Positions 36,548-38,305 of a stretch of 64,000 bases of DNA are shown here, piece by piece (position 1 is the first letter of the stretch; the number at the start of each line of letters is the position of its first letter). Made by a program: the position numbers and the translations under genes. Origin of the DNA: an uncultured Cryomorphaceae bacterium (lineage in GTDB: Bacteria; Bacteroidota; Bacteroidia; Flavobacteriales; Schleiferiaceae). The stretch covers positions 372,001 through 436,000 of the forward strand of contig CAKZJV010000007.1 in NCBI GenBank assembly GCA_937120475.1. The letters run 5' to 3'. The notes beneath the pieces were generated by a model. It saw only the letters and a program-made list of their open reading frames with translations, was not told where the DNA came from and made no database searches.

Positions 36548-38305
36548 ATGCAAATCATAAACCCCCGTTTGCAGTCGGCTATACAACTGCATCAAAACGG
36601 GCACTACCACGAAGCCGAGAAAATATACCGCTCCTTATTGGGAGCTGGTGATAACGAGCCCTCCTTTTACGCCTATTTTTCCGATGCCCTCAACCGGCAG
36701 GGTAAATTCAACGATAGCCTGGAAATACTGGTTCAGGCTGAACGGGATTTCCCCAATCAGGTAGGTTTAAAAATCACCATAGGTCAAACTCTTCTGAGTG
36801 CCGGTAATTTTGGTAAAGCCCGTAAGCTGGCTAAAGACTTAGCCCGTAAGCATCCCAAAAACGGGGAGGTCCATTATTTCTGTGGAAACCTGGCTATGCA
36901 AGACCAGCGGCCCGATGAAGCCCTGGCAGCTTTTGAAAAAGCAGTGACTTTTATACCTCAACTGGCCGAGGCTCATTACAACTGCGGCCTTATTCTTTAC
37001 CAGCAGGGAAATGTACCGGCTGCCCGGCAAAAATGGGAAGATTGTCTTCGCCAGCAACCTGCTTTTGTCCCGGCCCTGCTCAATTTAGGGAACGTTTCCC
37101 TGGAGCAAAATCATCACGAAGAGGCAATAGGGTATCTTGAGAAAGTTTTTCAATACGATGCTGAAAATCCATTTGCGCATCGCTTAATTGGTATGGCGCG
37201 GCATTACCTGGGCCAGGAGGAAGATGCCCTGGAGCATTATAAAAAGGTTTTAAAAAGCGAAGGTCCTTCAGAGGAGATATACACGCTGCTCGCCAACGTT
37301 TACCGCGATCTCAACCGTATGGAAGAGGCTACCGATTTTTACCAGAAGGTGATCGCAATGAACCCCAAAAACCGGATTGCCAATGAAAACCTGGACAAGA
37401 TGGGGAGCAGCCGGATAGAGGCCTGGCATTTCGATATGCTGGGTGACCTCAGGCGCAATGAAGCTTATGAACAAGCCATTAACCGGCAAATCACAGATGG
37501 AGATACAGTATTGGATATTGGTACCGGTTCGGGTTTACTCTCCATGATGTGCGCCAGGGCGGGAGCCGGAAAAGTTTACACCTGTGAAACTGTACCGGCC
37601 ATTGCCAAAGCCGCGGAGCAGGTGATTTCCGATAACGGTTATTCCGATCAAATACAGGTGATTGGCAAACGCTCCACCGGCTTAAAACCGGGTGCGGAGT
37701 TATCCGAAAAAGTAGATGTGCTGGTATCTGAAATTCTGGATTCAGGATTATTGGGGGAAGGGGTTTTACCCTCGGTACGCCATGCTAAAGCCAATTTACT
37801 GAAGGAGGGTGGTAAGATTATTCCAGCGGCCGCCACGGTAAAAGGGGTTCTCCTGCAATCGGAACATTTACATTCCATTGCTCCCCTGAAAACCATTTCG
37901 GGTTTCGACCTGAGCAGTTTCGGGCGTTTCCAGGTAAAGGAAGTGTACCGCAGGGAAACCCTTAACAATGTACCCCATCGTAATTTGAGCGAAGAGTTTG
38001 AAATACTGCCGGTTGACTTTTACCAATTGCCGAAGGAAGCAGGAGTGGATAATCCTAATATTCACCACCTGGAAATACCGGTAACCGAAAGTGGTAGCTT
38101 GCACGGAGTTGGCTTTTGGTTTAGCCTGCACCTGGATGATAAAGTCAGTCTTTCTTCAGGACCAAACGGTGAAATGATCCATTGGGGGCAGGCCGTTTTT
38201 TCCTTACCTCCCTTCCCCGAGGTAAAGGCGGGTGATACCATCCGCTTGCGGGTAGAACAAAGCGAAATGAAAATAGCCTTCTACCTGGAAGATCAGGGTT
38301 TATAA
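36548..38305 (+). CDS. TPR-PRMT: TPR repeats fused to a protein arginine methyltransferase-like domain
   Basis: A 585-residue cytoplasmic protein. Residues 1-285 are about seven TPRs (e.g. 'AHYNCGLILYQQGNVPAARQKW', 'YTLLANVYRDLNRMEEATDFY'). From 293 a class I methyltransferase follows: 'WHFDMLGDLRRNEAYEQAI', SAM motif I 'VLDIGTGSGLLSM' (321-333), ribose-binding Glu347 (YTCE), and the double-E loop SEILDSGLLGE with E395 and E404 at the same eight-residue spacing as in PRMTs. An 'IHW' at 544-546 corresponds to the PRMT THW loop. The combination of TPRs and a PRMT7/PRMT9-like domain is mainly known from eukaryotes (PRMT9). I infer arginine methylation of TPR-bound proteins. Substrates are unknown. 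Confidence 0.8.
   Translation: MQIINPRLQSAIQLHQNGHYHEAEKIYRSLLGAGDNEPSFYAYFSDALNRQGKFNDSLEILVQAERDFPNQVGLKITIGQTLLSAGNFGKARKLAKDLARKHPKNGEVHYFCGNLAMQDQRPDEALAAFEKAVTFIPQLAEAHYNCGLILYQQGNVPAARQKWEDCLRQQPAFVPALLNLGNVSLEQNHHEEAIGYLEKVFQYDAENPFAHRLIGMARHYLGQEEDALEHYKKVLKSEGPSEEIYTLLANVYRDLNRMEEATDFYQKVIAMNPKNRIANENLDKMGSSRIEAWHFDMLGDLRRNEAYEQAINRQITDGDTVLDIGTGSGLLSMMCARAGAGKVYTCETVPAIAKAAEQVISDNGYSDQIQVIGKRSTGLKPGAELSEKVDVLVSEILDSGLLGEGVLPSVRHAKANLLKEGGKIIPAAATVKGVLLQSEHLHSIAPLKTISGFDLSSFGRFQVKEVYRRETLNNVPHRNLSEEFEILPVDFYQLPKEAGVDNPNIHHLEIPVTESGSLHGVGFWFSLHLDDKVSLSSGPNGEMIHWGQAVFSLPPFPEVKAGDTIRLRVEQSEMKIAFYLEDQGL

Follow-up and report, generated by a model that had tools for sequence, protein, structure and literature searches.

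The window analysed here, a 64,000-nucleotide stretch from the genome of an uncultured Cryomorphaceae bacterium, contains on its forward strand an uninterrupted open reading frame in which tetratricopeptide repeats (TPRs) precede a core resembling protein arginine methyltransferases (PRMTs; Table 1). The single reverse-strand frame translated beneath it holds many stops, and the sole reverse ORF of at least 100 aa listed within its bounds encodes 106 aa. The gene is present once in the 3.65-Mb, 99.92%-complete genome, and its upstream neighbours resemble, by eye, those of the relative in Owenweeksia. Comparison with that relative gave pN 0.27 against pS 0.78 (dS is saturated) and thus points to purifying selection, which constrains the PRMT core (pN 0.21) more tightly than the TPRs (pN 0.33). 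The gene is neither a contaminant nor decayed. Ahead of the start codon, in the spacer that follows the preceding gene, lies a perfect inverted repeat, possibly a terminator, which is not among the calls of a consensus terminator scan.

Table 1. Features of the TPR-PRMT gene, in window coordinates
Feature	Position	Strand	Basis
TPR-PRMT fusion ORF, 585 aa	36548..38305	+	ORF list and translation; single copy in genome
Perfect inverted repeat, 14-bp arms, 3-nt loop	36503..36533	none	Between upstream gene and start codon
TPR superhelix, residues 6-289, 17 helices	36563..37414	+	Pfam TPR families; AlphaFold2 model
One PRMT catalytic core, residues 290-581	37415..38290	+	phmmer to PRMT9/PRMT7; Foldseek, VIA-align
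SAM-binding motif I VLDIGTGSG, residues 321-329	37508..37534	+	Translation, alignment
E395, first double-E Glu	37730..37732	+	50/50 aligned rows; Glu in 7/7 eukaryotic PRMT rows
E404, second double-E Glu	37757..37759	+	50/50 aligned rows; Glu in 7/7 eukaryotic rows
PRMT beta-barrel/oligomerisation subdomain PF22528, residues 450-571	37895..38260	+	49 bits, cut-off 27
THW-loop equivalent I544-H545-W546	38177..38185	+	H545, W546 in 11/11 rows of window's group

Architecture, active site and closest structures

Both parts of the fusion are recognised by Pfam above cut-off, as TPR families (down to E 1.8e-29) and as PRMT_C, and AlphaFold2, run with a 50-row alignment, returned a mean pLDDT of 95.5 over the whole protein and a pTM of 0.82. 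In alignment A3, which comprises the window protein and the proteins of 49 of 80 loci, PRMT_C (PF22528) matches 39 of the 50 rows at E 1e-3 and TPR_16 matches 37, five of these rows (L052, L054, L059, L061 and L086) having entered without their N-terminal part. An earlier note, made from the letters alone, had proposed a TPR-fused PRMT-like enzyme with motif I, two double-E glutamates separated by eight residues and an IHW sequence in place of the THW loop. Sequence, predicted fold, catalytic residues and phylogeny all bear this out. The double-E loop reads EILDSGLLGE, the acidic residue after motif I is E347, and the THW loop retains His and Trp with Thr replaced; E395, E404 and W546 are invariant in the 50 aligned rows. 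Aligned with PRMT9, PRMT7 from three species, PRMT10, PRMT2 and PRMT8, the window protein retains D300, R303, G325/G327/G329, E347, E395, E404, H545 and W546, the H545 position being Cys in PRMT9, Gln in T. brucei PRMT7 and Gly in 13 of 34 other bacterial rows.

A phmmer search of PDB sequences with residues 285-585 (best 60 of 94 matches) placed bovine PRMT9 first (E 9.1e-53), followed by human PRMT9, mouse PRMT7 (2.7e-41), T. brucei PRMT7 (3.1e-30) and type I PRMTs. Likewise, the top Foldseek match of the model is bovine PRMT9 (1.6e-24). VIA-align superposed the predicted model on human PRMT9 with Z 33.3 and an rmsd of 2.6 over 291 residues, and residues 166-585 on bovine PRMT9 (8rbk) with Z 31.9 and an rmsd of 6.6, which takes in some of the TPRs; as a whole, the TPR region was barely probed by the fold search. 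The best 50 rows listed of each fold search are all PRMTs; the closest structures are PRMT9 and then PRMT7, not small-molecule or rRNA methyltransferases.

Animal PRMT9 (8rbk, 6pdm, 7rbq, 9ay9) is thus the best match in sequence and fold and also carries a TPR region before its core; its ETVDAGLFGE aligns with EILDSGLLGE, and its THW position reads TCW, whereas the window protein has IHW. PRMT7 (mouse 4c4a, C. elegans 3wst, T. brucei 4m36) has the clade, the double-E and the fold in common with the window protein, the T. brucei chain matched being of single-domain length (343 aa); PRMT7 is not known to have a TPR domain. Type I PRMTs (PRMT1/2/3/6/8/10, CARM1) share the fold (Z 27.0-28.4), the double-E and the THW His, and PRMT2, PRMT8 and PRMT10 have G where the window protein has D398. 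The resemblance to the PRMT9 layout proposed in the earlier note therefore holds for the best match and the order of the parts, but not for the number of domains: both PRMT7 and PRMT9 are described as two-domain enzymes with inactive C-terminal domains (PMC10578352), whereas the 585 aa of the window protein hold one core in place of tandem methyltransferase domains. It is therefore a single-domain relative and not PRMT9 itself.

The roles of single residues can presumably be carried over from PRMT1, as is assumed here for D300, R303, E347, E395/E404 and H545/W546. The C-terminal core would then bind SAM through motif I, E347 and R303, with E395 and E404 clamping the guanidinium and D300 acting together with H545 and W546 of the THW loop. 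Catalysis by the window protein is very likely. The inactive C-terminal domains of PRMT7/9 (PMC10578352) provide a precedent for a PRMT fold without catalysis, in which a TPR scaffold would retain a pseudo-methyltransferase domain comparable to the second one in PRMT9. In the case of the window protein this is improbable, considering that the catalytic positions examined are retained, that both glutamates and W546 are invariant, and that pN is lower in the core than in the TPRs.

Some relatives are publicly annotated as ribosomal protein L11 methyltransferase (PrmA), and the Pfam PrmA profile indeed finds each of the 50 aligned rows with an E-value no worse than 1e-3, the window protein scoring 43.7 bits against a cut-off of 22. 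However, the match spans only profile positions 153-238 of 296, NCBIfam prmA TIGR00406 yields 38.7 bits against a cut-off of 183.15, and the fold matches are, as noted above, all PRMTs. Neither the double-E loop nor the PRMT_C domain is known as a feature of PrmA. The L11 methyltransferase identity, for which we would allow only the slightest chance, was rejected on the partial profile match, the sub-threshold TIGR00406 score and the fold matches.

Distribution and phylogenetic position

A pattern search of named genomes gave 175 matching stretches; relatives are encoded in 85, and 80 loci were retained. The relatives occur in at least five bacterial phyla, the tree rows including Bacteroidota, Pseudomonadota, Thermodesulfobacteriota, Actinomycetota and Myxococcota. 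The gene is rare in the window's phylum: 76 of 395 genomes match at E 1e-3, but full-length scores are found only in the window genome and G320, most of the others matching with the SAM-binding part alone. Four of 60 relatives match at 1e-20. Two relatives (L076:1323-3167 and L078:1405-3279) carry an N-terminal zinc-finger-like stretch, GRNDPCHCGSGKKYKHC, which we take to be SEC-C-like. Viral or phage origin was rejected, as none of the 33 stretches of viral contigs fitting the pattern was confirmed as a relative and 50,697 phage records gave no match. A defence role was likewise discarded; PADLOC returned matches to two TPR models and, over part of its length, to mad2, which were ascribed to the TPRs and the SAM fold.

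A 60-row tree (46 of the 80 loci and four of ten plasmid records besides L106, with a partial row for mouse PRMT7 and several long rows) places the bacterial family in one clade with PRMT7 and PRMT9, on one side of a branch supported at 100/99. On the opposite side lie PRMT2/8/10 and two bacterial PRMT-like proteins of the window's phylum, L004:973-2019 (-) and L005:1-858 (-), which thus fall on the PRMT1 side. L004 retains E-x8-E and THW; L005 is devoid of the glutamates and adjoins, by eye, an ABC-transporter-like gene. The window protein pairs with that of Owenweeksia (100/99). The pair lies outside a group of 42 rows (97/98), which contains alphaproteobacterial rows, metazoan PRMT7 and rows linked to SznF (see below). 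The window's group of 11 rows forms one side of a branch at 58/78. Addition of L171 and L172, present only in a quick tree, gave a 13-row window clade (SH-aLRT 97) made up of 12 carriers of this kind and L044. Constraining PRMT7 and PRMT9 to one clade came at almost no cost (p-AU 0.504), and a clade of all seven eukaryotic PRMT rows was weakly rejected (p-AU 0.031); these values do not place the root of PRMT7/9 inside bacteria. The gene encodes a genuine, conserved TPR-PRMT with one methyltransferase domain, of the PRMT7/9 type.

Ten plasmid records hold a relative, of which four are named 50S ribosomal protein L11 methyltransferase and one tetratricopeptide repeat protein. Moreover, the window's domain matches 16 NCBIfam families at E 1e-3, and no PRMT model is among them. 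In view of this gap in annotation, bacterial arginine methylation may be under-counted.

SznF-linked relatives and the free-arginine alternative

SznE/StzE is described as an arginine-guanidino methyltransferase that works with SznF in streptozotocin biosynthesis, the two making an N-nitrosourea derived from N-methylarginine (PMC11705231), and a methyltransferase 31% identical to SznE led to the saskemycin cluster (PMC12637814). BlsL (PMC5572114) and the LynB3 domain (PMC10127204) are reported as further bacterial guanidine or PRMT-like methyltransferases of natural products. Within the family of the window protein, SznF homologues adjoin the relatives at L059 (E 4.6e-147) and on a Pantoea plasmid (E 2e-103), and L052, L054 and L061 each have a protein similar to the SznF-like protein of L059 nearby; a Methylobacterium plasmid relative adjoins a gene annotated as 'iron-containing redox enzyme'. 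The SznF-adjoining relatives probably methylate free arginine. They share the bacterial-plus-PRMT7/9 clade with the window protein. In view of the bacterial relatives that adjoin SznF homologues, the window protein can only be presumed to methylate arginine in proteins. Nor do the TPRs constitute proof of a protein substrate, since TPR-like stretches also precede, by eye, the cores of L041 and the SznF-linked L061.

It is accordingly conceivable that the window protein is a methyltransferase of free arginine or another small-molecule guanidine, like SznE, with the TPRs docking other enzymes. We regard this as the less likely case, for several reasons. A PF14518 protein, the expected SznF-like partner, was not found in the window's genome; the SznF-linked rows belong to the 42-row group that excludes the window; and inspection by eye revealed no evident biosynthetic cluster around the gene in the window. 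Furthermore, T396 and C399 occur together in all six SznF-linked rows, whereas in the window's group T396 is found in none of 11 rows and C399 in one, and the window protein lacks the pair (the signature is post hoc, and cow PRMT9 likewise has T at 396). The missing PF14518 protein and T396/C399 pair thus make a free-arginine role less likely, and protein rather than free arginine is the likely substrate. The length of the TPR superhelix and the TPR_16 matches in 37 of the 50 aligned rows likewise speak for a protein.

The plasmid relatives are of separate interest. Pantoea dispersa plasmid pAHKW2b.3 (L119) and Methylobacterium indicum plasmid pVL1_1 (L123) group an SznF-like or iron-containing redox enzyme with the PRMT-like methyltransferase, a Rieske protein, an ATP-grasp protein and Ada, together with AlkA in L123. 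These are probable uncharacterised N-nitroso biosynthetic clusters, in which Ada (and AlkA in L123) possibly provides self-protection against DNA alkylation. A plasmid of Nostoc sp. ATCC 53789 (H10, 205459-206148) carries a PRMT-like stretch within a gene annotated as non-ribosomal peptide synthetase, reminiscent of lyngbyapeptin LynB3 as described in PMC10127204. The neighbours of the alphaproteobacterial relatives displayed no evident common functional theme.

Collar-domain proteins as candidate substrates

A phage-collar-domain protein (PF07484) was found in 12 of the 13 genomes of the window's clade, the exception being L044 (Desulfobacteraceae). In the window's own family, all four carriers of the PRMT gene encode a collar, compared with two of 33 non-carriers (Fisher 2.3e-4, a value that ignores kinship and genome size). 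A collar is also encoded by all eight other carriers of this kind, namely six named Bacteroidota, L034 (phylum unstated) and Oceanospirillum, whereas only two of 24 sampled carriers outside the 12 have a collar, L044 being among the misses. Collars are, moreover, common in the phylum at large, the background being 98 of 395 genomes at E 1e-3, a looser threshold. The binomial for 12 of 12 excludes L044 and assumes independence, and no conclusion rests on it.

Among the 12 loci (the window, L033/L173, L034-L040, L042, the 5-kb contig L171, and L172), a collar lies at most 8 kb from the PRMT gene in four: L039, L040, L042 and L172. In L039 (Oceanospirillum), a formyltransferase-like gene, the PRMT gene and a collar gene follow in series, no gap exceeding about 20 bp. 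In L172, which belongs to the window's family, the PRMT gene abuts a formyltransferase (PF00551/PF02911), and opposite the PRMT gene are two collars, an SprB-repeat protein, a periplasmic-binding-like protein and a 2OG oxygenase. The Roseivirga stretch L040 combines three collars and two 2OG oxygenases with a formyltransferase-like gene and a periplasmic-binding-like protein. L042, likewise from Roseivirga, encodes two Asp/Asn hydroxylases along with a collar and a periplasmic-binding-like protein, with no formyltransferase in the stretch; in L038 the only gene of the module is one for an Asp/Asn hydroxylase. As L040, L042 and L172 form one sub-clade, the adjacency amounts to about two lineages; the chance rate used for it (0.006 per locus) is a rough assumption on which no conclusion rests. 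The window gene itself has no collar, formyltransferase or oxygenase of the module next to it. Elsewhere in its genome, a collar and a formyltransferase share one strand at C7:2.42 Mb, 2.0 Mb from the PRMT gene, with a large protein whose secretion-tail match is weak, with a weaker second collar match at 0.59 Mb (0.18 Mb away) and a hydroxylase at 2.99 Mb (2.6 Mb away). Fifteen collar regions that lack a PRMT gene contain a formyltransferase-like gene in five cases, a binding-like protein in three and a hydroxylase in two.

In L154-L168, L172 and L116, collars again keep company with formyltransferase-like and periplasmic-binding-like proteins, Asp/Asn hydroxylases and large proteins that are probably secreted. 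A small family of 121-126 aa, alike by eye, is found near collars in L172:5020-5385, L158:5426-5806, L159:7999-8376 and L160:3925-4299; the L172 member has no Pfam match.

Collar sequences were collected as ORFs of at least 120 aa with phmmer E 1e-8 or better, identical copies being counted once. This gave 21 carrier collars, a set that excludes weak second matches in G000 (L114), G414, G452 and G454. The 21 were compared with 48 similar non-carrier collars from 30 genomes (28 picked as best matches to the window genome's collar, plus G411 and G444). In this post hoc contrast, the arginine of an LGxR[GS]G motif is present in 20 of 21 carrier collars, the exception being one of three in G454, as against nine of 48 non-carrier collars; by genome, at least one collar has it in 12/12 carriers and 8/30 non-carriers. 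The candidate site in the window genome's collar is arginine 80, in LGQRSG. In two alphaproteobacterial carriers, the single collar read lacks the LGxR arginine. Other arginines are also enriched in carriers (R50, 21/21 vs 25/48; R59, 21/21 vs 37/48; R19, 19/21 vs 31/48), and the non-arginine columns I40, G107 and S183 pass the same difference filter, as expected because a related subfamily would show the same. A phylogeny-controlled correlation between the LGxR arginine and the PRMT had one independent pair on supported branches and thus no power. The RGR motif of the collars was rejected as carrier-specific, R61 being present in all 48 non-carrier sequences as well. Structure prediction of the collar from five sequences gave a mean pLDDT of 29.8. 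The carrier collars inspected start, by eye, with no evident signal peptide.

The collar-domain protein may thus be a target of the window-clade PRMT, and as a substrate it represents a testable lead. The reading that we consider the best supported, and somewhat probable overall, is that the window protein is an enzyme of the PRMT7/PRMT9 type that uses SAM to N-methylate arginine at the guanidino group, in a protein substrate presented by the TPRs. The TPR superhelix would grip a protein partner and offer its arginine to the core, and a homodimer formed through the PRMT_C part is probable, in which two copies would do what the two fused domains of PRMT7/9 do. In the window's clade, the foremost candidate substrate would be the collar protein of the genome itself, whose gene adjoins one for a formyltransferase-like protein. 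The product would be mono- or dimethylarginine, with H545, where PRMT9 has Cys, predicting the monomethyl or the asymmetric dimethyl form. A more far-reaching proposal, which we put forward as speculative and on balance doubtful, is that Bacteroidota and an Oceanospirillum possess a dedicated protein-arginine methylation system, in which the TPR-PRMT homodimer would methylate the LGxR[GS]G arginine of cytoplasmic collars as part of a module that also includes a formyltransferase and either a 2OG oxygenase or an Asp/Asn hydroxylase, and that single-domain TPR-PRMTs would represent the bacterial lineage behind the tandem-domain eukaryotic PRMT7/PRMT9.

Methylarginine is reported for the E. coli protein TamA, as is methylation of lysine and/or arginine for nine proteins of M. 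tuberculosis (PMC8466066); a literature search on bacterial PRMTs returned, judged by titles, nothing on topic beyond that source. PRMT7 and PRMT9 are described as being among the less understood PRMTs (PMC10578352). If it acts on proteins, the window enzyme would provide free-living bacteria with a genuine PRMT for which a tractable candidate substrate is at hand, and its family would offer bacterial relatives for studying the origin of PRMT7 and PRMT9.
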